44,136 nt of DNA, taken from the IMG/VR virus record IMGVR_UViG_3300005613_000122, positions 1 through 44,136 of that record; one strand, given 5' to 3'. The DNA is from a virus. Positions 1-42,074 of this stretch are shown one piece after another (the stretch's first letter is position 1; each line of letters opens with the position of its first letter). Made by a program: the position numbers and the translations under genes. Under the pieces are notes generated by a model. That model searched no databases, was not told the DNA's origin, and was given only the letters and a program-made list of their open reading frames with translations.

Positions 1-123
1 TCAATTAGGTTTATATGATAAATTCAAAATAAATAAATCAGATATGACAATTACTAATATTTCAAATGATAGTGCATTATTGTTTTTTGGACTTGATGAT
101 ATTGAGAAATTAAAATCTATACA
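1..123. repeat. Left copy of terminal direct repeat (circular overlap)
   Basis: Bases 1-123 match bases 44014-44136 exactly. The terminase large subunit frame runs unbroken across the join, so the two ends are one locus and the unit genome is 44,013 bp. A short exact overlap of this kind usually marks a circular or circularly permuted molecule closed by an assembler. A real 123-bp terminal redundancy is possible but less likely. Confidence 0.95.
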
Positions 124-1024
124 GGGTATAACATCTATTTGGGTTGAAGAAGCTAGTGAATGTGATGAAAACGATATTGCAGAGCTTAACAGAAGACTTA
201 GAGGTCATACTAAATATTATAAACAAATACTAATTACTTTTAATCCTATTAGTCATTTACATTGGTTAAAGCAAAGATTCTTTGATAATCCTGCAAGTGT
301 TGCATCCGTTTATAAATCTACTTATCTTGACAATACTTTTATAGATGATGAATATAAAACAGAGATTGAAGATATAAAAAATTATGATATTCAACAGTAT
401 AATATTTATGCTTTAGGAGAATGGGGAGTATTAAATACTAATATTATTTATCATAACTTTGATTTTAAAAAACATACTACTGAATTAACTATTGATGATT
501 TTCAGTATCTTTTTTGTGGGGTTGACTTCAACGTTGGCGGAAGTGTGTGTGTTATTTGTGGTATTAGAGATAATAAAGTATATGTGGTCGATGGTTTTGC
601 TGTTCACGATACACAAGCTATTGTAAATCAATTACAAGGAACTAAATATAAAGGTAAAGACTTTATATTGTTTCCAGATGCAAGTGGTGGAAATGAAAGT
701 GCAAATGCTTCACTAACTTCTATTGCTATACTTAAACAAGGTGGCTTTAGAATTGAAGCACCAAGAGCGAATCCACCTGTAAGAGATAGAATTAACTCAA
801 TGAATAGAATGTTTGCAAGAGATAATATTTTAATAAATGATAGATTGGAAAAACTAATAAACTCTTTACAAATTCAAGCTTATATGGAAAATGGAAAACC
901 TGAAAAGTTTACAGAACATAGAGGCGGTGCTATTGATGATTGGAATGATGCTTTAGGTTACTTTATACATAAAAAGTTTAGTATTATCAGAAATAATGTA
1001 ACATCAAGCGATTTCCTAATATGA
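2..1024 (+). CDS. terL: Terminase large subunit, C-terminal part (gene spans the circle join)
   Basis: This is the DNA-packaging motor of the procapsid. The gene starts at 43796 at the other end of the window and continues here in the same frame, giving 413 residues, normal for the PBSX/Terminase_3 type. In full-length numbering the Walker B is WVEEASE (about 120-126) and the coupling motif is TFNP (about 152-155). The nuclease domain carries acidic residues in GVDFN (about D248), FPDASGG (about D299) and DDWNDA (about 385-389). The Walker A lies in the part at the right end. The next gene overlaps its stop by 4 bases, so the two are translationally coupled. Family assignment is firm; packaging strategy cannot be read from it. 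Confidence 0.95.
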   Translation, partial: QLGLYDKFKINKSDMTITNISNDSALLFFGLDDIEKLKSIQGITSIWVEEASECDENDIAELNRRLRGHTKYYKQILITFNPISHLHWLKQRFFDNPASVASVYKSTYLDNTFIDDEYKTEIEDIKNYDIQQYNIYALGEWGVLNTNIIYHNFDFKKHTTELTIDDFQYLFCGVDFNVGGSVCVICGIRDNKVYVVDGFAVHDTQAIVNQLQGTKYKGKDFILFPDASGGNESANASLTSIAILKQGGFRIEAPRANPPVRDRINSMNRMFARDNILINDRLEKLINSLQIQAYMENGKPEKFTEHRGGAIDDWNDALGYFIHKKFSIIRNNVTSSDFLI

Positions 1025-2057: not shown

Positions 2058-2717
2058 ATGAAGATGTTAAAAGATTTAGGATGTATAAAAAAACAAAAAG
2101 ACCAAAACAGATACGGAGAGTTTGAATGCCCTATTTGTTTAAAGCCTTATATAACCAGAATTAGTAGTGTAAAGAGTGGATGCTCTACTAAATGTAAAAA
2201 ATGTTCGTGTAATAAAAAAATATATAATATTTCTGAAGTATTAACTTATGATGCGACGACTGGTAACTTCACAAGAAACATAAGGACTTCAAACAGAGTA
2301 AAAAAGCTGGATAAATGTAACAATAAAAATGCTCAAGGCTATATTGCGATAGTGGTCAATAAAAAAACATATTTAGCACATAGACTCGCATGGATATTCA
2401 CGCATGGAAGTATACCGATTGAGATGGAGATAGACCACATTAATGGAATAAGAGATGACAATAGGATTGATAATTTAAGACTTGTATCATCAAGCGAGAA
2501 CTCAAGAAATATGGCTATTGGCAAAAAAAATAAAAGTGGGGTTATAGGTGTTTCTTTTTATAAGTCTAGAAATAAATGGAGAGCTACTATAATGAGTAAC
2601 AATAAGCAAAAACATTTGGGATATTTTGGAAACAAAGATGATGCAATAAGTGCAAGAAAAGATGCAGAAATAAAATACAACTACCATAAGAATCATGGTA
2701 GAAATAAAATAGTATAG
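2058..2717 (+). CDS. HNH homing endonuclease with N-terminal zinc finger and C-terminal AP2 domain
   Basis: Probable free-standing selfish endonuclease. The N-terminus (residues about 24-51) has paired cysteines (CPIC, CSTKCKKCSC), a likely zinc ribbon. The middle (about 115-155) is an HNH_3-type site with AHRLAW, EIDHINGIRDDNRIDNLR and SSSENSRN. The C-terminus (about 165-215) is an AP2-like DNA-binding domain (GVIGVSFYKSRNKWRA, HLGYFGNKDDAI). It sits between dUTPase and a small Cys-rich gene, with an AAGGATAAT ribosome site before the ATG. It does not visibly interrupt a coding sequence. It is the first of three HNH-type genes here, each with a different domain set. Confidence 0.88.
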   Translation: MKMLKDLGCIKKQKDQNRYGEFECPICLKPYITRISSVKSGCSTKCKKCSCNKKIYNISEVLTYDATTGNFTRNIRTSNRVKKLDKCNNKNAQGYIAIVVNKKTYLAHRLAWIFTHGSIPIEMEIDHINGIRDDNRIDNLRLVSSSENSRNMAIGKKNKSGVIGVSFYKSRNKWRATIMSNNKQKHLGYFGNKDDAISARKDAEIKYNYHKNHGRNKIV

Positions 2718-2738
2718 ATATAATAATAGGACAACAAA

Positions 2739-2918
2739 ATGACTAAAACACTATCCTGTAGTAACCACTACTGCAAAGGTTACAAAAACAACCTATGCAA
2801 AAGAGCTTTATTGCATAGGGAAAAACTGTATAATAAGCAAATAGATGATAATTATATAACTAAGCGAAATAATACGGAGTTATGTGATTTGTTTATTGAT
2901 AAGGATACTAATGACTGA
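2739..2918 (+). CDS. Small cysteine-rich protein, 59 aa (putative zinc-binding)
   Basis: The ORF begins at ATG 2739 after an AGGACAACAAA ribosome site. It ends at TGA 2918, overlapping the next gene (ATG 2911) by 8 bases, so the two are likely coupled. The N-terminus has a compact CSNHYC followed eight residues later by another Cys (pattern C-x2-H-x-C-x7-C), which could bind one zinc ion. The rest is basic then acidic. I do not recognise the family. A place just before the MuF and portal genes suggests a head-assembly or regulatory accessory role, but this is a guess. Confidence 0.6.
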   Translation: MTKTLSCSNHYCKGYKNNLCKRALLHREKLYNKQIDDNYITKRNNTELCDLFIDKDTND

Positions 2919-3969
2919 TTTAACAACAGAAATAATAAAAGCAACAAGCCTACTAAACCGTGTAAACTCAGACACTTACGATACATTAGTAGAACGTTTA
3001 GACAATGCACAAGCCCTAATTAATGCAGAGATTATGAAGTATGATACATTGACGCCAAAACTAAAGAAGTTTATAAATGATACTATTGGAGAGGTATATT
3101 CCAATTTTGACACTTTAATGCTTAAAGATATTGAAGATGTTGTTGAGGTCGCTTATGATAAGGTTGGTATGATTATGGGTGCTGTTGCTGGGGTTGAGGT
3201 TGTTAAGTGGAAAAATGCTAAAGACTCAGTTAAAAAAAGATTAGTAAATCCAAACAAACCAATTTTAGGTAACAATCTAAAAGAAGAGAAAGCCAACCTT
3301 GTTTATTCACAAAATAAACGATTAAGGCAAGTTATAGCAGATGGATTTGAAAGTGATTTATCATTACAACAAATACAACGACAAGTTAGAGCTAGTGAAA
3401 ATGCTAATGACTTATTTGCTAAGATAAAAAGAAATGAGATTAATACTATTACTAGAACTGCTTTATTGTCTAATATTGAAGATGCTAAAAATGAAGCTAT
3501 GGAAGTGTTTGAAAAAGAGGAGTGGTTTTTAGGGTGGGAGTATTTATCTGTTTTGGATACGAGAACTAGCGATTATTGCAAAATTGCAGATGGATATGTA
3601 ACTAAAGATAAATCAAAAGCTAAATATGTTCCGAAATCCCATTACAATTGCAGATCTATGTGGAAACCGATAACTGCTTATGATGAAGTAACAGAGCGAC
3701 CCTCTACAATATGGGATAGCAAAACTGTAAATCATAGGGATGGTTCAAAATCAACTAAATTTAAAGTAAAAGATACAGAGCTTGTATCAAGTAATTTAAA
3801 ATATATGGAATGGTATAAGCAACTACCAAAACAAGATAAAATATTGATAATGGGTAAACAAAGAGTAGAACTTATTGAAAGTGGAAAGATAAGTTTAAAA
3901 GATGCTACTAAGTTGCAGAATAATAGTTTTATATCTGTTAGAGATTTGAAGAAACAATTAGATTTATAA
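2911..3969 (+). CDS. MuF-like minor head protein (phage head morphogenesis)
   Basis: A minor capsid/portal-associated protein, probably carried inside the head. The C-terminal half holds the Phage_Mu_F signature: W-E-Y-L-S-V-L-D-T-R-T-S-D-Y-C, then DGYV, then KSHYNCRSMW, with conserved Cys and the His-x2-Asn-Cys-Arg cluster (residues about 205-255 from the chosen start). The first 130 residues are helical. I chose ATG 2911 (352 aa) over the upstream in-frame start at 2884, because 2911 has an AAGG site and overlaps the preceding stop. Unusually the gene precedes rather than follows the portal gene. It is immediately upstream of the portal, as expected for the pair. Confidence 0.85.
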   Translation: MTDLTTEIIKATSLLNRVNSDTYDTLVERLDNAQALINAEIMKYDTLTPKLKKFINDTIGEVYSNFDTLMLKDIEDVVEVAYDKVGMIMGAVAGVEVVKWKNAKDSVKKRLVNPNKPILGNNLKEEKANLVYSQNKRLRQVIADGFESDLSLQQIQRQVRASENANDLFAKIKRNEINTITRTALLSNIEDAKNEAMEVFEKEEWFLGWEYLSVLDTRTSDYCKIADGYVTKDKSKAKYVPKSHYNCRSMWKPITAYDEVTERPSTIWDSKTVNHRDGSKSTKFKVKDTELVSSNLKYMEWYKQLPKQDKILIMGKQRVELIESGKISLKDATKLQNNSFISVRDLKKQLDL

Positions 3970-3976
3970 AATATGC

Positions 3977-3982
3977 TATAAT
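3977..3982 (+). promoter_or_regulatory. Possible -10 element before the portal gene
   Basis: TATAAT in the 33-base gap between the MuF and portal genes, preceded by AAAATATGC, resembling the spacers of class A promoters. The upstream TTTAATC element is poorly matched, so this is only a weak candidate. An AAAAAGG ribosome site follows, before ATG 4003. Confidence 0.35.
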
Positions 3983-4002
3983 AAAACCAAAAAGGCTTTT
4001 AT

Positions 4003-5337
4003 ATGGTTAATAAAGTAAGCCCACAAATGGCACAAATGCACTCTAAATATCAACTAATCAACGACCTAAAAGGCGGAGCTGATGCTATTATAGGAGCAGG
4101 GGATAAGTATTTATCAAGAGGATTAAGAGAATCTAAATTATCTTTTGAACAACGATTAAAACACAGTCGGTATATAGACTATTTTAATAGTACAGTACAA
4201 TCAATAACAGGTTTAATGTTTAGTGATAAAGTAGTTTATGAAGACCTAGACCCTAAATTACAGCCATTCATAGAAAATGCAGATTCAATCGGTACTCATT
4301 ATGATTTAGTATTATCTAAATTATTTAAAAATTCTTTAGAGTTTGGTTTGGGTTTTATCCTTGTCGATATAGCTAAGGGAGAAAAACAATCTTTAGCAGA
4401 CGAAGTCGGTATAGAGCCTTATGCAACACTAATTAACGCTATGAATGTTATTAGTTATAAAAGTGAAGTTATAAATGGCAAAACTGTATTATCCCAAATA
4501 GTTATTAGAGAATTAGTCGAGGAAGATATTGATGAGTTTGAAACTGAAGTAGTTGAACAATTCAGGGTATTAAATAGAGGTTACTATAGAATATTTAGAG
4601 GTAATATTAAAGAGGGATTCGGTGTTGTTGAAGAGGGTGAAACAGGCTTAGATTATATTCCATTATTCGCTTTAAACTTAGATGAAGATGGAGGGTTTTT
4701 AGATGCCAAACCACCTCTTTATGAACTGGGTACTTTATGTAAGTATCATTATCAAGATTATAGTGAGATGAGTTGGAGTCTTTTCACGGCGAATGTTCCG
4801 ATAAGAACTATGACAGGAATAACAGCTGATGAAGCTAAGGGCTTAGAAATATCACATAATACAGTTATGAGAAGTGATAATGAGAATGCAAAATTTAGCT
4901 ATTGGGAGTACGATCCTAAAGCGATTAAATTCACAGCAGATGAACTAGAAAAACTAAGAGGGGAAATAGCAAAAGCTGGTATAGGTGCTATAAGTGGTAA
5001 ATCTCAAATGACAGCAACTGAAAATGTCTTAGATAATATTAAAACAGAGTCTAAGCTACAAACATACGCTAGAAAGTTAAGAGATGTTGCTGAGTTAGTT
5101 TTAATGTGTGTTGCAGATTTTAAAGGTATGGATACAGATAATACGGGGCGTGTTAATATTAATATTAAGCTTAGTTCAGATGTTGATGCTAGTTTCATCA
5201 CAGCAGTTACTGGAGCTTATGCTAAGGGAAGTATGAGCTTAGATACTATGTACGCAATGATACAAACAGGTAAAATGCCAGATAACTTTGATATTGAAGA
5301 AGAAAAAAGTAAAATAGCGGTTGGGGTTTTAGAATAA
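4003..5337 (+). CDS. Portal protein (DUF4055-like)
   Basis: Forms the dodecameric ring at the packaging vertex. The N-terminal pattern matches the DUF4055 portal family: a segment about GGADAIIGAGDKYLSRG, then LSFEQRLKHSRYIDYFNSTV, then ITGLMFSDKVVYED. The 444-residue length is normal for that family. A mid-protein stretch rich in acidic residues, and a later segment with ISGKSQMTATE (about 325-335) followed by a long helix, fit the clip/stem/crown order. The gene lies between the MuF gene and the sRNA/promoter region before the scaffold gene. Confidence 0.88.
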   Translation: MVNKVSPQMAQMHSKYQLINDLKGGADAIIGAGDKYLSRGLRESKLSFEQRLKHSRYIDYFNSTVQSITGLMFSDKVVYEDLDPKLQPFIENADSIGTHYDLVLSKLFKNSLEFGLGFILVDIAKGEKQSLADEVGIEPYATLINAMNVISYKSEVINGKTVLSQIVIRELVEEDIDEFETEVVEQFRVLNRGYYRIFRGNIKEGFGVVEEGETGLDYIPLFALNLDEDGGFLDAKPPLYELGTLCKYHYQDYSEMSWSLFTANVPIRTMTGITADEAKGLEISHNTVMRSDNENAKFSYWEYDPKAIKFTADELEKLRGEIAKAGIGAISGKSQMTATENVLDNIKTESKLQTYARKLRDVAELVLMCVADFKGMDTDNTGRVNINIKLSSDVDASFITAVTGAYAKGSMSLDTMYAMIQTGKMPDNFDIEEEKSKIAVGVLE

Positions 5338-5568: not shown

Positions 5569-6306
5569 GTGAATGAACAGCTTAAACAGTTTTTAGCATT
5601 ATTGAATGATGCAGAAACACCGAGGGAAACTCTAGTTAAAGGCTTTACTACAGTTCAAGATGCAGCGACTAAACTTAATGACGATTATGTGAAAGTTAAA
5701 ACAGAACGAAAAGATGTAGGAAGCAAATTAGACAGCGAAAAAGGTTTTAAAAAAGAGGTATTAAGTACGCTTGGATTAGATGATACTGCTACACTTGATG
5801 ATATTAAAACAGCTTATAATTCAGATAAGAATTTAGAGAAGCATACGGCAAAATATGAAAGCCAAATTAAAGAGCTTCAAACTATTTTATCTGAAAAGAC
5901 AACATCATTAAATGATATGACTAATAAATATCAAGATTATGAGTTCACATCTTTGATTGAAAAGAATGGTTTAATGGATGATGCTAGAAAAGGTTATCAC
6001 AGGGATAATGTTTTAAAGCAATTAAAAGATAATCTAATCGTTAAAGATGGTGAATTATATAAGAGAAATGGTGATGATATTGCTAAGTCTATAACTACTG
6101 GTGACCCTATAAAAGCTATTGACTTTGTTGGAGAATTGAAAAGTAATGAATATTGGATGGAAGCTTTTGAGCCACAAGGTAAAGCTAAAGGGATGAATAC
6201 TCCTGCAACACAACCGAGTGGTTATCAGCCAAAAGAGATAAAAACATCTGATTATAAAGATGTCGGTGCGTTTATGAAAGACGCTTTTAAAAACATAAAT
6301 AATTAA
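5569..6306 (+). CDS. Head scaffolding protein
   Basis: Likely internal scaffold for procapsid assembly. The 245-residue protein is acidic/basic and almost wholly helical. It has a predicted coiled coil at about residues 75-130 (KNLEKHTAKYESQIKELQ... TSLNDMTNKY) and a C-terminal helix-turn region after a Pro/Gln linker (about 205-245), as in scaffolds whose C-terminus binds the capsid shell. It starts at GTG 5569 with an AAAAAGGA site and sits directly before the major capsid gene with an 11-base gap. Identification rests on position and composition, not on a sequence motif. Confidence 0.75.
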   Translation: MNEQLKQFLALLNDAETPRETLVKGFTTVQDAATKLNDDYVKVKTERKDVGSKLDSEKGFKKEVLSTLGLDDTATLDDIKTAYNSDKNLEKHTAKYESQIKELQTILSEKTTSLNDMTNKYQDYEFTSLIEKNGLMDDARKGYHRDNVLKQLKDNLIVKDGELYKRNGDDIAKSITTGDPIKAIDFVGELKSNEYWMEAFEPQGKAKGMNTPATQPSGYQPKEIKTSDYKDVGAFMKDAFKNINN

Positions 6307-6317
6307 AGGAAAAACAA

Positions 6318-7472
6318 ATGTCAATATTAAGTGCAGATTTTTTAGCAACACTAAATGAAAAGGTGGTTAACCCAGCTTTCGAAGTAGCTAGAAGCAATAT
6401 TATAGGAGTATCAAGAGTTATATCTGATATTGATGCAAGAAGCCCAGAGAGTGGTTATAAATTCTCTTGGCTAAATCAACAAATTGGTGCAGGTGGTTCA
6501 ACTGTAAATGGTGCAATTTTAGCAGCAGCAACAACTTTAACAGTTGACGATGGTACACAATTTAGAGCAGGTATGGCAATATCTGTGAATGGGTCAGATG
6601 AGGTTATGTTAGTTACTGCAATTAGTGGAAATGACTTAACAGTTACTAGAGGGTTTGGTGGTACAACTGCTGCTGATATTGCTGATGATGCAGTTGTAAC
6701 TATAGATTCAGTTGGTAGAGAAGAAAATTCACTTGGTGTTGATGATAATATGTTTGAACCAGACCCAGTAGAAAACTTTTTTCAAACATTAGATACTCAG
6801 CTTACATTTTCAAGAAGAGCTTTAGCACAAGCACAAATCGGTAATTATAACGATATGGAAACACAAATCACTGAAAGAGTAAATCAATTAACAATTCAAA
6901 GAAATAGAATGTTGATTAGAGGTAGAAAAGCAACTGCGACTATCGGTGGTAAAACAATATCTTATTCAGGTGGTATGAATTATTGGTTAGAGCAAACAGG
7001 TGGCAACACTGTTGATAATGGTGCTGCGGCTTTAACACTTGCTAAGATTGATTCATTAGTTGAGCAAACAGTTTTAAGAGGTGGTATGACTAATACTATT
7101 GCAGTTAATACTAAACTTGCTAGAGTTCTTCAAGGTCTTGTAAATGCTAACTATGGTTCACAAAGATTAAGTGAGTCACAAACAGATAGAGGAGCATTAA
7201 CTCAATTAAGTTCTGATTTACCAATTTTAGGACAAATCAATAACATAGTTGTTGATACTAACTTAAATGATAGTGAGCTTATTATGTTTGATTCATCTAA
7301 ACTTGGATTTGTACCAATGGCACAAGGTAACGCTAACGCTTCTGGAAATTGGAGAACATTGGATGCTACTGCTAACGGTCAAGATGGTGAGTCATTAAGA
7401 ATCGTTGGAGATTTTGGTATTGAGTTTAAATCGTTTAAAACACACGCGGTTAGACTGAAAAATATAGGTTAG
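6318..7472 (+). CDS. Major capsid protein (HK97 fold, DUF5309/SU10-like) with inserted beta domain
   Basis: The main shell protein, 384 residues. The N-terminus (about 1-55) has the expected arm and E-loop start (SRVISDIDARSPESGYKFSW). A Gly/Thr/Val-rich beta insertion at about 60-128 (AAATTLTVDDGTQF, AGMAISVNGSDEVMLV, SGNDLTVTRGFGGTT) is typical of DUF5309-type capsids and probably displays on the capsid surface. The core then resumes with long helices (TQLTFSRRALAQAQ, TERVNQLTIQRNRMLIRG). The gene has an AAAGGAAAAACAA ribosome site. It is followed by a 62-residue protein and a terminator, making scaffold-capsid-small protein one unit. Confidence 0.88.
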   Translation: MSILSADFLATLNEKVVNPAFEVARSNIIGVSRVISDIDARSPESGYKFSWLNQQIGAGGSTVNGAILAAATTLTVDDGTQFRAGMAISVNGSDEVMLVTAISGNDLTVTRGFGGTTAADIADDAVVTIDSVGREENSLGVDDNMFEPDPVENFFQTLDTQLTFSRRALAQAQIGNYNDMETQITERVNQLTIQRNRMLIRGRKATATIGGKTISYSGGMNYWLEQTGGNTVDNGAAALTLAKIDSLVEQTVLRGGMTNTIAVNTKLARVLQGLVNANYGSQRLSESQTDRGALTQLSSDLPILGQINNIVVDTNLNDSELIMFDSSKLGFVPMAQGNANASGNWRTLDATANGQDGESLRIVGDFGIEFKSFKTHAVRLKNIG

Positions 7473-8138: not shown

Positions 8139-8166
8139 AAAAGGTGGGGTTTAAAATAAACTCCCC
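8137..8166 (-). terminator. Rho-independent terminator of the antisense accessory operon
   Basis: On the minus strand GGGG(AG)TTTA pairs with TAAACCCC around a TTT loop, followed by ACC and a run of six T. The stem is formed by the last codons and stop of the cytosine methyltransferase gene, so terminator and C-terminal tripeptide share the same bases. A two-base bulge is needed. Confidence 0.6.
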
Positions 8167-9230
8167 TCTTTAGTGTTATTATCTCTTGACTTCTCTATCT
8201 GATTAAAAATCATCTCCATAACATTAACACTTATACTGTTTCCAGCTTGTTTGTAAAGTTGACTATTGCTAACTGCAAATTTAAAAGTATCGGGAAAATC
8301 TTGCAATCTAAAGCATTCTCTTGGTGTTAGTTTTCTTATTTTAAAATCTTCTTGTATCTTAGGTTGTCTATTCCCACCCTCCATAGTTGGTAAGGTTGGA
8401 CTTAATCCATCTTGACTATATACTCTTTTGATTGAATCGTTGCCTTTTATGTTAAGTGTCCCAATAGGGGTACAGTTCGGTTCAATAATACCATTTGGTT
8501 CGCTTGCTCTTAAACAATAAGCAACTTGACCCTCTATTCCTATGCACTCACCCCTTGATTTGCTGTTTCCTAGTTGAAGTGGTATGGGTTCTTTATTATT
8601 AGTAAATCCCTCAATCATCTTATCACTCAAATAATACTTATCATCAACTTCATCCTCTAAAACATCTTTTAATCTTTTTTTTAACTTCATCTTAGGTGCA
8701 AAACTAAAATTATAATAATGTTCAGTATCTTTAAAACCAACTAAAAAGATACGCTCTCTGTTTTGTGGCACTCCATAATCTTTAGTATTTAAAACTTCAT
8801 AGTGACAATGATAACCCATATCTCTAAAAGCTTCTACAAACTCTTTTATAGTTTTACCACCTTTATCACTTAACATACCTTTCACATTTTCATATATAAA
8901 AATAGGTGGTTGTATCTCTTTTATTATTCTAATATACTCATAAATTAAAACACCTTTATTTCCATCAACACCAGCTCTTAATCCAGCTAAAGAAAAATCT
9001 TGACAAGGCGAACCACCTATTAAAATATCAACTTTACCTTTATATTGAGTGCCGTCCATATCTGCAATATCTTTGTGAAAATGTTTATCTTCTATTTGAT
9101 AATTAGCTTTAAATGACTCTCTTGCATATTTGTCCCATTCACAAGCAAAAACTAAATCTAAGTTATCATATACTCTTGATGCACCTTGTTCGGGTGAACC
9201 TATCCCACTGAATAAAGTACCTATTTTCAC
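8151..9230 (-). CDS. DNA (cytosine-5) methyltransferase with C-terminal SLF peptide
   Basis: Transfers methyl from SAM to carbon 5 of cytosine in phage DNA, probably shielding it from host restriction. Motif I is LFSGIGSPEQG (6-16) and motif IV GSPCQDFSLAG has catalytic Cys about 76. Motif VI is YENVKGML (113-120) and motif VIII PQNRERIFLVG (155-165). A target-recognition region of about 100 residues follows, then motifs IX-X (RKLTPRECFRLQDFP, QAGNSISVNV). The 359-residue length is normal for a solo enzyme. GTG start 9230 overlaps the upstream stop (GTGA). No partner restriction enzyme is seen. The last residues (KEGSLF) resemble those of both other methyltransferases in this genome. Confidence 0.95.
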   Translation of the reverse strand: MKIGTLFSGIGSPEQGASRVYDNLDLVFACEWDKYARESFKANYQIEDKHFHKDIADMDGTQYKGKVDILIGGSPCQDFSLAGLRAGVDGNKGVLIYEYIRIIKEIQPPIFIYENVKGMLSDKGGKTIKEFVEAFRDMGYHCHYEVLNTKDYGVPQNRERIFLVGFKDTEHYYNFSFAPKMKLKKRLKDVLEDEVDDKYYLSDKMIEGFTNNKEPIPLQLGNSKSRGECIGIEGQVAYCLRASEPNGIIEPNCTPIGTLNIKGNDSIKRVYSQDGLSPTLPTMEGGNRQPKIQEDFKIRKLTPRECFRLQDFPDTFKFAVSNSQLYKQAGNSISVNVMEMIFNQIEKSRDNNTKEGSLF

Positions 9231-23940: not shown

Positions 23941-24515
23941 TAAAAGATAATGATATAGCTATACCTATGCAAGGTGGCGGTGATGTTGTAGCTGAGGGTG
24001 TATCATTTGATGGTGCTACTGATTACCTGAGTAGAAGTAGTGATTTAGTTGGAAATGTTGATAGTAAGACTTTTACTTTTAGTGCTTGGGTTTATGTGCC
24101 TGAAGATTATGCTCAAGGAGGTAGTGACTATTTTTTATCAATAGGTTACAATAACCACTATATAAGGAGAACTACTTACAATAAAGTAAACTATAAGTTT
24201 TCAGATTCTGCAAATTCAGCAGTATTGTCAGGGGCATCAGATATTGGTATTTCTTTATCAACTTTTACTAATATTCTTATTAGTTACGATGCGAACTCTT
24301 CAAATTTTTCATTGTACTTGAATGATACAGCAGTAAGTTACTCAAATACTTCACAACTAAATGGCGTCATAGATTTTACTAAGGACATGCTTCATATAAT
24401 GAGGGATGACAATAGTCAGTATTCTAAAGGCAGACTCTCCCACTTATTCCTAGACTACACATACAGAGATTTATCTATAGAAGCTAATAGAAGGCTCTTT
24501 TTGGTGCCTAGCTAA
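23937..24515 (+). CDS. LamG/concanavalin-like tail protein, possibly truncated
   Basis: 192 residues. A LamG-type carbohydrate-binding fold is indicated by VSFDGATDYLSRSSDL, FTFSAWVYVPED, and a final GRLSHLFLDYTYRDLS. In the 667-residue fibre downstream the equivalent LamG domain is followed by another 150 residues. Here the protein stops soon after the domain (RLFLVPS), next to an inserted HNH gene. It may therefore have lost a C-terminal part when the HNH gene arrived. Confidence 0.7.
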   Translation: MIKDNDIAIPMQGGGDVVAEGVSFDGATDYLSRSSDLVGNVDSKTFTFSAWVYVPEDYAQGGSDYFLSIGYNNHYIRRTTYNKVNYKFSDSANSAVLSGASDIGISLSTFTNILISYDANSSNFSLYLNDTAVSYSNTSQLNGVIDFTKDMLHIMRDDNSQYSKGRLSHLFLDYTYRDLSIEANRRLFLVPS

Positions 24516-24548
24516 TGTGTAAGTTAATAAACAAAACAGTTGCTTCTA

Positions 24549-24577
24549 TTGACAGTAGTGATAAAATATGTTATAAT
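24549..24577 (+). promoter_or_regulatory. Perfect sigma-70 consensus promoter for the HNH gene
   Basis: TTGACA (24549-24554), exactly 17 bases, TATAAT (24572-24577). It lies between the LamG stop and the HNH ATG (24605). No other promoter in the window is consensus in both boxes, so the selfish gene appears to carry its own strong host-type promoter. Confidence 0.8.
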
Positions 24578-24604
24578 GTTCTATACTTAAATAAGGAAGA
24601 ACAA

Positions 24605-25267
24605 ATGGAACTAACTAAGAGAATGAAAGACTTAACTGGGCAAAAGAAAGGTAGATTAACTGCCATTAGACCATCACATAGAGACAAGCAAAACTCAGTA
24701 ATGTGGGAGTTTAAGTGTGAATGTGGTAACACACATATAGCAAGAGGTGCTGACTTTAGTATCGGTAAACAACAATCGTGTGGGTGTTTACAAGAAGAGA
24801 ATAGATTTAGTCACAATATGAGTAATACTAGAACATATAAAATATGGAGAAGTATGAAAAGCAGGTGTCACGAAAGTACAAGAGCAAGTGATGTGGAAAA
24901 TTACCAAAACAGAAATATTACTGTTTGTGATGAGTGGAAAGACAGCTTTGAAAAGTTCTATGAAGATATGGGTGAAGCGAAAGATGGATTCGATATAGAT
25001 AGAATAGATAACAACAAAGGATACAGCAAATACAACTGTAGATGGATAAGCCGAAAAGAGAATCTGCAAAATAGAAGAAATAGCTATATTTGGTGTTATA
25101 ACGATAAAGAATACGGTTCCGCACAAGACTTAGCAGAAGTGGTAGGAGTAACTGCTGGAACTATAGATAGGTGGGTAAATGGATATACACATAATCAGAC
25201 TGGCAAATACTATCCACCTAAAGAGGGATACAGTAGAAGACTAAAATATGAAAGAGAGGTAGAATAA
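24605..25267 (+). CDS. HNH endonuclease (phage IDRIDNN type)
   Basis: 220 residues from ATG 24605, chosen because AAGGAAGA precedes it and the consensus promoter lies upstream; the in-frame extension to 24515 covers that promoter. N-terminal zinc-ribbon-like region: WEFKCECGNTH and QSCGCL (Cys at about 39, 41, 58, 60). Middle: KIWRSMKSRCHE and FDIDRIDNNKGYSKYNCRWI, SRKENLQNRR, a known phage HNH family. The C-terminal part has an HTH-like segment (SAQDLAEVVGVTAGTIDRWV, about 164-183). It lies among the tail-fibre genes, with coupling TAATG to the next gene. Confidence 0.85.
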   Translation: MELTKRMKDLTGQKKGRLTAIRPSHRDKQNSVMWEFKCECGNTHIARGADFSIGKQQSCGCLQEENRFSHNMSNTRTYKIWRSMKSRCHESTRASDVENYQNRNITVCDEWKDSFEKFYEDMGEAKDGFDIDRIDNNKGYSKYNCRWISRKENLQNRRNSYIWCYNDKEYGSAQDLAEVVGVTAGTIDRWVNGYTHNQTGKYYPPKEGYSRRLKYEREVE

Positions 25268-31104: not shown

Positions 31105-31127
31105 ATTATAGCATTTTAGGGATTAAA
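31105..31127 (-). promoter_or_regulatory. Class A phage promoter
   Basis: Minus-strand TTTAATC (31127-31121), spacer CCTAAAATGC, TATAAT (31110-31105). Its first bases overlap the stop codon of the adenine methyltransferase gene. It would drive the genes from 31099 down to 29438. Confidence 0.7.
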
Positions 31128-32247
31128 AAAGGCTTAGTTGTATATCTTTAGATACATTTTCATCTACACTACAAAATAACTTCTCTATAACTTTATTTGT
31201 AGTAGTTGCACTTAAAGAGCTAGTATGTTCAATCTCTAATACACAAGGCAAGTGACACTCATAACTACTAATATACACTTTAAAGCCCTTATCTATTAAT
31301 GTATCTACCCATTTATAAAACTCTTTATGATTAATATCTTTTTCATATTTACCTGTGTTTTCATAAGGTGGGTCTAAATAAATTATAGTTTCGTTTGGTG
31401 GTGTTGTGAATTGTACTTGTTCATATGATTGGTTTGTTATGTTTAGGTTTATGTTTGCTAAATCTATTAGACAATTTAATCTTTCAAAGTGTTGCAACCT
31501 TTCAAAATGCTCTGGTATATTGCTATTGTTTTTTGATATTTTTAAATATTTATCTAATCTTTGTAAAATATCCTCATCAAACAAAGCATTATTATCTAAA
31601 CTAATATTAGTATCAAACTTATCATTAATGGCTTTTAAACTATCCTCACATTTATTTATAATAACATTATGCAAAAGCTTTTTATCAGCTTCTGTATCTT
31701 TGCCATAAATATAATCCTTTTGATTATTCCCAAAACTCCAAACAACTTTACACAGTCCACCTAAAAAATCATCTTTATCTTTATTATCTAAAAATGTTTG
31801 TCTATCTATGAATTGATAATATTTATCTGTAATGCCATTATCTCTAATGTCTTTTAAAAGTGATACTACACCACCATTAAACTCATTGTAAAATACTTTT
31901 TTAATTTGATGTTTTTGTATAGCTTCAAAGCTTATAGCTCCACCACCTCCAAATACATCATAGAAATATTTAACATCTTTATTTTTCTTTAGTATATAGT
32001 TTACTATTTCATTTGCGATTTTTCTTTTGCTACCCATATACGGAAGCCCTAACTGTGGTTTATATTTCATTTTATCCTCTATTTGTATCATATTATCATT
32101 TCTAATAATAGACTTTTTATCAATACCAAATTTAAACCAACCATTTACAGTAGTTTTACATCTAGGTAAATCATAGTAAGTTGATACTCTTTTACCTTGC
32201 TTTATTAGTTGGAACTTTTTGTTTGTTTTTTTGTGTTGGTATATCAA
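31123..32247 (-). CDS. Dam-type DNA adenine methyltransferase with C-terminal QLSLF
   Basis: D12-class N6-adenine methyltransferase, 374 residues. An N-terminal extension of about 65 residues precedes the SAM motif LPYMGSKRKIANEI (69-82) and VFGGGGAISFEA (98-109). Catalytic motif IV is YLDPPYENTG (290-299, DPPY). Start is TTG 32247, overlapping the upstream methyltransferase stop (TTGA), so the two enzymes are made together. The last five residues are QLSLF, an exact match to the bacterial beta-clamp binding consensus QL(S/D)LF. No restriction enzyme is encoded nearby, so it is a protective or regulatory methylase. Confidence 0.92.
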   Translation of the reverse strand: MIYQHKKTNKKFQLIKQGKRVSTYYDLPRCKTTVNGWFKFGIDKKSIIRNDNMIQIEDKMKYKPQLGLPYMGSKRKIANEIVNYILKKNKDVKYFYDVFGGGGAISFEAIQKHQIKKVFYNEFNGGVVSLLKDIRDNGITDKYYQFIDRQTFLDNKDKDDFLGGLCKVVWSFGNNQKDYIYGKDTEADKKLLHNVIINKCEDSLKAINDKFDTNISLDNNALFDEDILQRLDKYLKISKNNSNIPEHFERLQHFERLNCLIDLANINLNITNQSYEQVQFTTPPNETIIYLDPPYENTGKYEKDINHKEFYKWVDTLIDKGFKVYISSYECHLPCVLEIEHTSSLSATTTNKVIEKLFCSVDENVSKDIQLSLF

Positions 32248-33077
32248 AATAGGCTCATTTGCTTGTGTAACTCTTCACTAAATAACCCAACATTGCAATC
32301 TAAAGCGTCCTTATGTTCTTTAATTCTTTTAGTGGCTTTATCAAAATAATCTTTATCCATTTCAAAACCTATATAATTTCTTTTAGTGTTTAAACACGCT
32401 ATTGCAGTTGTTCCTGAACCCATACAATTATCTAGGACTGTTTCATTTTCGTTTGTGTAGGTTTTTATTAGATATTCAAAGAGTGGGACGGGTTTTTGGG
32501 TTGGATGGATATTGTCATTATTACCTCTTGCAAAATCAAGTATATTTGTTGGGTAATCTTCATATTCAACATCTCTTTGAGAAGTGTGAGATGGTCTTGC
32601 CCCTATAACTCCGTCTTTTTTATCAGAGAATGGCTTAGGTCTTTTATGTATTTTATTTACTTTTGTTAGATTTTGTGGATTGTAAACCATTCTATTATCT
32701 TTTAGTAACGATTTATGTCCCATTGATGCTTTTGAAAATACACTTATATTCTCACTTCTTTTTAGTGGCATATTTTTAGCGTGTATAAAACCTGCAGATG
32801 TTGATTTTAACCATATCCAATCATATTTAAATAGTTCTATTTGACTGGCTCTTAATGATGTACTAAATGGTTCTGAACCAAACAGTACAATCGCCCCATT
32901 ATCCTTAATAACTCTCTTATATTGCTCCCACAAAGGTTCAAAAGGGACAACTGAGTCCCACGCTGAATCAATAGTACCATAAGGTAAATCACAAAGTATC
33001 ATATCAACACTTTTATCTTCTATATCTTGCATACCTATTAAACAATCCATATTATATACTTTATTTAATTCTAGCAT
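32244..33077 (-). CDS. N6-adenine/N4-cytosine DNA methyltransferase (class beta) with C-terminal QMSLF
   Basis: 277 residues with motifs in the beta-class order. Catalytic CDLPYGT (29-35; DLPY rather than DPPY) comes first, then a recognition region (about 100-180). HPTQKPVPLFEYLI (191-204) and the SAM-binding DNCMGSGTTAIACL (216-229) follow. A DLPY motif is compatible with adenine or N4-cytosine methylation. The C-terminus is HKQMSLF, again a clamp-binding-like peptide. The gene is coupled to the Dam-type gene and overlaps the upstream membrane protein gene by 17 bases. Confidence 0.93.
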   Translation of the reverse strand: MLELNKVYNMDCLIGMQDIEDKSVDMILCDLPYGTIDSAWDSVVPFEPLWEQYKRVIKDNGAIVLFGSEPFSTSLRASQIELFKYDWIWLKSTSAGFIHAKNMPLKRSENISVFSKASMGHKSLLKDNRMVYNPQNLTKVNKIHKRPKPFSDKKDGVIGARPSHTSQRDVEYEDYPTNILDFARGNNDNIHPTQKPVPLFEYLIKTYTNENETVLDNCMGSGTTAIACLNTKRNYIGFEMDKDYFDKATKRIKEHKDALDCNVGLFSEELHKQMSLF

Positions 33078-35645: not shown

Positions 35646-36272
35646 TTATTTATACTTCCATATACTGTTTGTTTTTCTATCAGGCTTTCCACTTTTTAAA
35701 CTTCTTTCCATACTGAATCCATTTATTCTATATGCACTACTAAAAGATACATATTCTGCTAATAAATTACCATTTATATCAAATTGCAAAACAGGTTTAC
35801 ATATTGCTCCACTTTTATTTAATCCATTTAAGATATCATTATTTTGATGAAGTTGATTGTCTTTCCAAGTTCCTAATTGTATATTGTCTAATGAATATGA
35901 TTTGTAATCATCTTTTCTATCAACAGACGGCTTCATCCATTTGTCAAAATTTGACTTCACATAATTATCATATATTTCTTTATATCCATTATCGTATAAC
36001 CAGTCTTTTAACTCTTCTTTTGTATATGATGGTAAATCCATACCTCTTGCTTTACTGTTTGATTTTTGAGTCTTATATATAACTCTAATAACACCTTTTT
36101 CTGTTCTATCATATGAGTTTTCATTTTTTGATATAGTTTTTGGATTGTCTTTAGTGTCTTTTTTTGTACACTCTTTGCATTTGCCTAAGTATCCATCTAG
36201 CATTTGTTTATGTCTATAATATTCAGTAATTGGTTTATCAATTCTACATTTGAAACATTTTTTAATCTTCAT
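35646..36272 (-). CDS. HNH/NUMOD1 homing endonuclease-like protein
   Basis: 208 residues. N-terminal zinc ribbon CFKCRIDKPITEYY...GKCKEC (Cys 6, 9, 33, 36). The central KPSVDRKDDYKSYSLDNIQL (about 113-132), then WKDNQLHQNND, is an HNH-related segment (D-R-x-D...Y-x3-N). The C-terminal 45 residues are a NUMOD1-type DNA-binding domain (PVLQFDINGNLLAEYVSFSS...SIWKYK). It sits between the SSB-like and VRR-NUC genes and has its own promoter with an inverted repeat. The selfish element may borrow control from its neighbours. Confidence 0.82.
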   Translation of the reverse strand: MKIKKCFKCRIDKPITEYYRHKQMLDGYLGKCKECTKKDTKDNPKTISKNENSYDRTEKGVIRVIYKTQKSNSKARGMDLPSYTKEELKDWLYDNGYKEIYDNYVKSNFDKWMKPSVDRKDDYKSYSLDNIQLGTWKDNQLHQNNDILNGLNKSGAICKPVLQFDINGNLLAEYVSFSSAYRINGFSMERSLKSGKPDRKTNSIWKYK

Positions 36273-40082: not shown

Positions 40083-42074
40083 CTAAAACATCTCAGGCAT
40101 TTCAACACTATCGTAATCATATGTTGTTATTTGTGGTTCTGAATTATAAAGTAAACTATACTTTTTACCAAAAGGTGCTTTTTCTGCACTCCATAATTTA
40201 TCAATATTGTCTTTTAGTATTTTGGCTATGACTTCTTTTTTAGCAACGTTTTTAAATCTGGCATTTATTGAACTTGTAAATGGTTTGTTTTCTTTATTAG
40301 ATAAATAAGTTTTTATTTGATTTGTTAAATCATCATCATCTATAAATACAACTTCTTCCATTTGTGGTTCATCATCTGTTCCTATTTCAACACTATTTAT
40401 AACTCTAGTAGCAAAATCAATATCAATATCATACATATTATCTTTTTTATCTGACCTTGATTTTTTAACAAAAGCTTTTACATTTCCATTATTATTTGAT
40501 AAAATAAGCATATTGTCAGTAATAGCTTCAATAATTTGTGAACCGATATAATTTCTTTTCCCATTATCATCTGCAGCTTTTAAAGTATGATGCAAAACAA
40601 TAATAGTAGCACCAAATCTATCTCTTATTAATTTAAGCATTAATAGAAAATCTTTTGAACTTGTATCGTCTCCTATTGTACCTTGTGAAAAGAATTGTAA
40701 ACCATCTAATATAATAAGTGTTTTATCTCCACTGCCTTTTGGCATAAGTGTTAAACTTTTTAAAGCATTTACCATATCTTCAATAGTTGATTTTATTCCA
40801 TTAAAATAAGAAAATTTATCACCATAGTTTTTGGTTAATCTTTCAATAGTATCCTTAACATATCCAACTGAACTATCAGGGTCAAAAAATAAAGCATTTT
40901 CTATTTTCTTATCATCTAATAAAGATTGTGTAATACCATAAGTAAGTGCCGATTTACCTGCATTTGGTGGAGCTACAATCATTGTTATATTGTTTTTAAT
41001 AATAAGTTCAGGATATAAAAATTCTTGATTTTGCGCAGCCTCTATATCTTCTAAAGTAAGTGGTGATATTCCTTTGAAAAAAGTATCTTTCCAATTTACA
41101 ACTTTAATATCTTCACTAATAATAAAATTATCAAAAGCATCTTTAAATGTTTTTAAATCTTTAAAGCAATATGTATAATCTGTAAAATCCTTACTGTCAC
41201 ACTTTGTTATCTTTTTAAACTCTTTATGGTTAAACCATATTTTTTCACTAACACAATCATCATATAACTTAACCATGCTATCTTTACCATCATCATCATC
41301 TATAAAGATACATAACCTATCTTTTAATAAATCATTGTCTAATTGATAATTAGCTTGTGGTAATGCTATAACACTATATCCACACATTAAAGCTGTTAAG
41401 AAGTCCCTAGAACCCTCTACTATTAAAGTTATTTTATCAGTTGTTAATCTGCAATATGGATAATTGCTTTTAGTTCCACTAATAGCATTCCATTTAACCA
41501 TTTCACCATCAAAATTTGGTTTTCTTCTATGTCTAAAAGTATGAATATCGCCTTTTTCATCAGGTAAAGCAACTATACAAGTATCGTGCACTTTATCATA
41601 TCTAACTAAATTCTCAAACTCTTTTTTATCTTGTTCTGATGCTTCGTGAATTAAGTAATCAGGAATAATATCAATTAAATGTTTTTTATGCTTTTTATAA
41701 TTAATATCATCATAAGAAGTAGCTTTAAACATTGCTAATACTCTTTCAGGCGATGGGTATTTCTTTTGTGGTACTGTTACTATCTCATAATCGTTTTTAC
41801 TATCTATATTGTATTCATCTTTTAAAAACTTAATAGCTTCACTTGTACTTTTATTAAGTGCTTTCATAACTAAGTCTATTGGACTTCCACCATCTTTTGA
41901 ACCAAAATCAGTCCAAGTATTAGTGTCTTTATAGAATTTTATAGAACTTGTTTTTTCTTCTCTAATAACATTGTTTTTAGAAGATATTATATTTCCTCTA
42001 CCGTATGGTTCAAATCCTAAACTTGTAGCTACTGATATAATATCAATAGCTCTTATTTTATCTAGTTCTGACAT
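40083..42074 (-). CDS. Primase-helicase (Toprim plus RepA-like ATPase)
   Basis: 663 residues. An N-terminal segment (1-90: TSSIKFYKDTNTWTDFGSKDGGSP) resembles a zinc-free CHC2-type primase start. A Toprim domain follows: ITLIVEGSRDFLTALMCGYS, with acidic EGxxD (about 215-223), and LCIFIDDDDGKDS (about 250-262). The RecA-like domain has Walker A MIVAPPNAGKSALT (about 362-375) and motif H2 LIILDGLQFF with LHHTLK downstream, like RepA/DnaB-type helicases. It likely makes primers and loads the host replisome. The 5' leader before it is long and highly structured. Confidence 0.9.
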   Translation of the reverse strand: MSELDKIRAIDIISVATSLGFEPYGRGNIISSKNNVIREEKTSSIKFYKDTNTWTDFGSKDGGSPIDLVMKALNKSTSEAIKFLKDEYNIDSKNDYEIVTVPQKKYPSPERVLAMFKATSYDDINYKKHKKHLIDIIPDYLIHEASEQDKKEFENLVRYDKVHDTCIVALPDEKGDIHTFRHRRKPNFDGEMVKWNAISGTKSNYPYCRLTTDKITLIVEGSRDFLTALMCGYSVIALPQANYQLDNDLLKDRLCIFIDDDDGKDSMVKLYDDCVSEKIWFNHKEFKKITKCDSKDFTDYTYCFKDLKTFKDAFDNFIISEDIKVVNWKDTFFKGISPLTLEDIEAAQNQEFLYPELIIKNNITMIVAPPNAGKSALTYGITQSLLDDKKIENALFFDPDSSVGYVKDTIERLTKNYGDKFSYFNGIKSTIEDMVNALKSLTLMPKGSGDKTLIILDGLQFFSQGTIGDDTSSKDFLLMLKLIRDRFGATIIVLHHTLKAADDNGKRNYIGSQIIEAITDNMLILSNNNGNVKAFVKKSRSDKKDNMYDIDIDFATRVINSVEIGTDDEPQMEEVVFIDDDDLTNQIKTYLSNKENKPFTSSINARFKNVAKKEVIAKILKDNIDKLWSAEKAPFGKKYSLLYNSEPQITTYDYDSVEMPEMF

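Follow-up and report, generated by a model that had tools for sequence, protein, structure and literature searches.

Transposases, such as that of IS1634, and TnsE are mobile-element enzymes in which a C-terminal Q-L-x-L-F peptide, acquired convergently in non-homologous proteins, leads through the host clamp to host DNA (PMC4549789, PMC5371812); in transposases, mutation of the Gln and Phe of this peptide abolished β binding and reduced transposition (PMC4549789). Here we describe the same kind of ending on the products of two adjoining DNA methyltransferase genes, one of the D12 class (Dam-type) and one of the beta class, in a 44,136-base contig from IMG/VR, the whole of which is referred to as the window and which may be incomplete. 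The D12 enzyme ends in QLSLF and the beta-class enzyme in QMSLF, and these tails are probably convergently acquired clamp-binding peptides that bring the phage methyltransferases to the host β sliding clamp (DnaN); methylation of nascent DNA before restriction is a plausible purpose. Transposases and TnsE are recombination enzymes seeking target sites, whereas the window pair are phage methyltransferases for which clamp binding is predicted.

Four further systems resemble the pair in part. In the DNMT1–PCNA system, too, a clamp-binding motif recruits a DNA methyltransferase to newly made DNA (PMC9690074), but that system is eukaryotic and of unrelated origin, and relies on PCNA and a PCNA-interacting peptide (PIP) motif for maintenance CpG methylation. 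Clamp-binding polymerases also carry a motif at the extreme C-terminus of a flexible tail, although these are polymerases with measured affinity (PMC11139829). The plasmid enzymes M.EcoGIX and M.BceJIII are mobile-element methyltransferases coupled to host replication, but the coupling operates via Pol I, a clamp intermediary being a suggestion of the authors (PMC7736820), and neither DnaN nor QLSLF was found in the text of that paper. The Bacillus subtilis methyltransferase DnmA is a host enzyme found close to the fork, a location put down to its unmethylated substrate and not to a clamp motif (PMC9973331); given such enrichment through substrate, presence at the fork is by itself no proof of clamp binding.

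Two adjoining methyltransferases end in the clamp-binding consensus

The bacterial clamp-binding motif is Q-φ-x-[L/M]-[F/L], or a six-residue form of it, with QLxLF having the highest affinity; several natural motifs lie at the extreme C-terminus, including that by which Escherichia coli Pol II docks on the clamp, and the Gln is helpful without being strictly needed (2024 review, PMC11139829). The E. coli delta subunit binds the clamp pocket through QAMSLF, and a Helicobacter pylori ligase peptide ending in SLF occupies the same pocket of the H. pylori clamp (PMC4976356). QLSLF of the D12 enzyme is the ideal form of this consensus, and QMSLF of the beta-class enzyme fits it too, as proposed in the original prediction, which was made from the letters of the window alone. 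Open reading frame (ORF) translation confirmed both endings, KDIQLSLF-stop and HKQMSLF-stop, and placed on the minus strand the two genes, for which no strand had been given (Table 1); the beta-class gene lies upstream and overlaps the D12 gene by 4 nucleotides. By analogy with established clamp biology, QLSLF and QMSLF are likely to bind DnaN.

Class membership is borne out for the D12 enzyme by its PF02086 profile match and a DPPY motif (YLDPPY), and for the beta-class enzyme by its PF01555 match and a motif IV, DLPYGT, seen commonly in that family. For the D12 gene, the TTG start is uncertain: residues 1–62 have a predicted local distance difference test score (pLDDT) below 50 in the AlphaFold2 (AF2) model, and codon 53 (position 32091) is an in-frame ATG; the QLSLF tail is unaffected by this choice. 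The stretch 32091–32247 (minus strand), about 50 residues ahead of the likely ATG, is open from the TTG and has no homology in aligned relatives, and represents either an N-terminal extension or a mis-called start. Both enzymes count as solo phage methyltransferases, with no cognate restriction enzyme gene beside them: a search of the window for a partner restriction enzyme turned up none, the only candidates being genes of the HNH/AP2, VRR-NUC and endonuclease VII-like types. The gene that matches phrog_8790 (‘restriction endonuclease’) is the HNH/AP2 gene at 24515–25267.

Enrichment of the tail in viral methyltransferases

Relatives were gathered from viral contigs regardless of their tails; all remaining genes of those contigs, together with those of motif-unrelated contigs, formed the background. 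QxxLF-stop ends 21 of 110 beta-class, 3 of 45 C5 and 2 of 84 D12 enzymes, compared with 3 of 3998 other phage genes, an enrichment of approximately 30- to 300-fold across three phage methyltransferase classes. The corresponding Fisher P values (2.5e-31, 2.5e-5 and 4e-3) are too certain, as the enzymes are kin and thus non-independent; the recurrence in three separate classes and the tree described below are the safer argument. The looser ending [L/M]F-stop is found in 37/110 beta-class, 12/45 C5 and 9/84 D12 enzymes and in 26/3998 other genes. Shuffling the last 20 residues, the check called for in the original prediction, gave expected QxxLF-stop counts of 0.04, 0.02 and 0.01 for the beta, C5 and D12 classes against the observed 21, 3 and 2. 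Among 56 distinct [L/M]F tails, Gln occupies position −5 in 25 and any other position listed in at most 8, and T, K, R or S predominate at position −3; the [L/M]F tails recover the clamp-binding consensus even though they were not picked for Gln.

That two short endings should fit the consensus by chance is very improbable. A five-residue motif is admittedly short and the tail is missing from most relatives, but the background stands at the 3 genes given above, two of the three window methyltransferases are tailed and the class as a whole is strongly enriched.

Several results weigh against the clamp-recruitment reading. About 80% of the phage beta-class relatives lack QxxLF and about two thirds lack even LF. 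The tail is absent from the Lactococcus 936-group beta-class and T7-like Lauvirus homologues examined. One LF-tailed D12 contig also carries a family A polymerase (PolA), which shows that the tail is not restricted to polymerase-less phages. Tail sharing among methyltransferases of one locus does not exceed expectation (p = 0.26), and the third methyltransferase of the window, a C5 enzyme, ends in KEGSLF, keeping LF but replacing Gln with Glu and the position-2 hydrophobic residue with Gly; it misses the consensus and is not counted as a member, and Gln-to-Glu in a consensus peptide gives much weaker clamp binding (PMC11139829). The host clamp, finally, is pointed to only weakly, through a window replication gene whose weak resemblance is to one Campylobacter and one Helicobacter phage protein only.

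Two points of the original prediction are upheld in part. Its statement that the third methyltransferase ends similarly stands for LF and fails for the Gln and position 2. Its view of the tail as a shared trait and not a chance match is upheld by the class enrichment over shuffles and background, but not by co-occurrence within loci or by the Gln-less third enzyme. Recurrent in the phage relatives but often lost, the tail is a frequent option and not a rule.

Close relatives of the D12 enzyme either are tail-less or end in IKSLF, YTRLF or YGSLF; in isolated phages, none of the D12 enzymes examined is tailed. In Staphylococcus phage IME1354 the ending is NKQMELFDI, with QMELF two residues before the end. 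Neither PolA nor DnaN was seen in any of 50 records with beta-class relatives, many of which are fragments. In contig L632, a D12 methyltransferase ending in QTKLF lies near genes ending in QLNLF and QPKLF, giving three putative clamp tails in 4.5 kb (2067–2285, 2291–3070 and 5578–6510, all on the plus strand). Contig L010 carries the same D12/beta-class pair as the window (1–819 and 3390–4181, plus strand), with both products ending in SLW and not SLF; Phe-to-Trp weakens binding to the E. coli clamp, so the host clamp may differ there.

Flexibility and evolution of the tails

In the AF2 model of the beta-class enzyme the last 17 residues have a pLDDT of about 50–56 against a core of at least 90, and in that of the D12 enzyme the last residues have about 52–62 against a core mostly above 90. 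In these models both clamp motifs lie in flexible tails outside the fold; neither is packed inside it, in line with the original prediction. The LF end is kept over widely differing linker lengths in beta-class alignments. A quick, weakly resolved tree was computed for 105 beta-class enzymes after removal of their last 16 residues. It requires no fewer than 25 changes of the [L/M]F state and no fewer than 12 of QxxLF; judged from this tree, the ending is gained and lost as often as would be expected of a short linear motif. None of 50 distinct PF01555-type bacterial chromosomal proteins from two phyla ends in [L/M]F, a set that partly comprises other subfamilies and so is not perfectly matched to the phage enzymes; one of the 50 has QLCLF three residues before its end.

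These observations bear on the reading that the ending has nothing to do with the clamp and instead serves the structure or dimerisation of the methyltransferase itself. In parts of the beta-class family it sits right after the last helix (for example, RINKHKNQQRLF), and many endings have LF without Gln, as such an element might. The same ending is nonetheless common to three methyltransferase classes and to B-family polymerases, follows linkers of variable length, is gained and lost frequently, is flexible in the AF2 models and is missing from all 50 bacterial relatives, all of which makes a structural role improbable. The broader notion that the ending is a general property of the methyltransferase fold was rejected on the bacterial relatives and the flexible tails.

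A motif-first scan of viral contigs

Codon patterns for QL[S/T]LF-stop, both AT-rich and GC-rich, were scanned across viral contigs blind to gene identity, and a scrambled version of those codons, L[S/T]QFL-stop, was the control. Among the matches listed, the real pattern closes an ORF of 200 amino acids or more at 54 of 213 sites and the scrambled pattern at 3 of 186. Profile matches among 68 real-tail proteins were to phage DNA polymerases in 16 cases, mostly of family B, and to N6/N4 methyltransferases in 11. The remainder include proteins matching other methyltransferase profiles, Mom-like enzymes, a NAD-type ligase domain, helicases and late transcriptional activators. Profile scanning of 10 scrambled-tail proteins found no methyltransferase and no polymerase, and a single gene of 2058 in the motif-unrelated contigs of the scrambled pattern ends in QxxLF, encoding a C5-type methyltransferase. 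For the class, chance was rejected on the tail shuffles, the other-gene background and the scrambled pattern together. An artefact of AT-rich gene ends was also rejected, because the GC-rich pattern finds methyltransferases as well and LF is a rare ending among the remaining genes of those contigs.

What points most strongly to the clamp is the recurrence of this ending on phage polymerases, because E. coli Pol II, a family B polymerase, binds the clamp C-terminally. Family B-type phage polymerases of approximately 620–700 amino acids ending in QL[S/T]LF occur in contigs L175, L179, L200, L201, L204, L215, L220, L224, L233, L246, L260 and L279, and their sequences suggest that these enzymes use the host β clamp. 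Coincidental resemblance of a C-terminal degron, or of some other peptide signal, to QLSLF is highly unlikely: hydrophobic C-termini can act as protease signals, but no result of this analysis favours that reading, and a degron would need neither Gln at −5, present in nearly half of the [L/M]F tails, nor restriction to proteins that modify or replicate DNA.

Other tailed proteins extend the range. A Mom-like DNA modification protein (phrog_1384; L203, 1191–1877, minus strand) ends in QLTLF-stop, so that the tail is not confined to methyltransferases. Proteins of phrog_836 (late transcriptional activator) end in QLSLF-stop in four contigs (L123, 9787–10176, minus strand; L094, 2184–2567, L113, 5970–6293, and L142, 235–621, plus strand). 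In phage T4, gp33 and gp55 tie late transcription to replication through gp45, and by analogy QLSLF could link late transcription with replication via the host clamp in the phrog_836 proteins. Uncharacterised proteins of phrog_5696 and phrog_38338 ending in QL[S/T]LF (L144, 2686–3537 and its neighbour 3562–4059; L082, 708–1631; L132, 4168–5022; all on the plus strand) are candidate replication or repair factors. We regard as evenly balanced the broader proposition that clamp-less phages repeatedly evolve C-terminal clamp-binding peptides on modification enzymes (all methyltransferase classes and Mom-like), polymerases and late-transcription activators, a general replisome hitchhiking that would tie both the marking of DNA and the expression of late genes to host replication.

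Proposed mechanism and its precedents

As the original prediction had stated, the window encodes no evident polymerase or clamp: a homology search found no DnaN homologue, and no DNA polymerase was seen among the best 25 of 33 Pfam families and the phrog matches. With neither in evidence, the phage presumably relies on the host replisome to copy its DNA, and such copying would place the methyltransferases on phage DNA ahead of restriction. In the proposed sequence of events, QLSLF and QMSLF would slot into the hydrophobic pocket of DnaN, the methyltransferases would ride clamps left on new DNA behind the fork and methylate it during synthesis, and they would thereby reach phage DNA ahead of the restriction enzymes, which cut daughter molecules lacking methylation. 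Action of the tailed enzymes at the replication fork is plausible, as is escape from restriction as the benefit.

The tail might also bind the host clamp for another benefit, such as competition with host polymerases, preservation of epigenetic marking in a prophage or replicon, or simply a raised local concentration on DNA. Its presence on polymerases, a ligase, Mom-like enzymes and putative late-transcription activators would make clamp recruitment a general phage tool, and DnmA stays near the replisome through its unmethylated substrate, with no clamp motif reported (PMC9973331). The enrichment is, however, centred on enzymes of DNA modification and replication, which pure clamp poisoning would not need, and placement at the fork is most useful to enzymes that meet only new, unmodified DNA. 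A benefit other than escape from restriction is considered unlikely, though less so than a structural role.

Methylation of a phage's new DNA must outpace its cleavage by host restriction, and the question of how solo phage methyltransferases win this race is rarely raised. If the tails do recruit the host clamp, a five-residue docking tag would explain how the race is won in a sizeable minority of phages; it would also carry the transposase–clamp theme over to viruses and provide a bacterial parallel to DNMT1–PCNA. The motif is known and the principle is known; the class of user is new. The literature searched (subscription papers and preprints aside) yielded no description of clamp-binding tails on methyltransferases of phages or bacteria, in keeping with the original prediction, which knew of no such phage strategy, and the word stem ‘methyl’ is absent from the main text of the 2024 clamp review (PMC11139829).

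Other genes of the window

Endings in [L/M]F occur in 4 of the 75 called genes of the window, namely the three methyltransferases and a primase-helicase-like replication protein (Table 1).

Table 1 Window genes ending in [L/M]F, with the two tails that fit the clamp-binding consensus
Feature	Position	Strand	Details
D12-class (Dam-type) N6-adenine DNA methyltransferase	31123..32247	minus	374 amino acids from TTG; PF02086 1.3e-12; phrog_56 8.6e-39
D12 tail QLSLF-stop	31123..31140	minus	codons CAA CTA AGC CTT TTT TAA
Beta-class N6/N4 DNA methyltransferase	32244..33077	minus	277 amino acids from ATG; PF01555 1.1e-29; phrog_67 3.5e-76
Beta-class tail QMSLF-stop	32244..32261	minus	codons CAA ATG AGC CTA TTT TGA
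C5 cytosine DNA methyltransferase	8151..9230	minus	359 amino acids; PF00145 2.9e-84; ends KEGSLF-stop
Primase-helicase-like replication protein	40083..42074	minus	CHC2-type zinc-finger and AAA_25 matches; ends EMPEMF

Relatives of the C5 enzyme end in QGSLF, KGSLF, TDTLF and NNTLF. The EMPEMF ending of the primase-helicase is a possible weak clamp motif, judged from its residues, and a primase-like protein in contig L006 ends in EADGLF, likewise a possible weak clamp motif on a phage primase. An endonuclease VII-like gene (35646–36272, minus strand) near the D12/beta-class pair weakly matches a profile for Lar-like restriction alleviation (phrog_5558, 7.8e-7).
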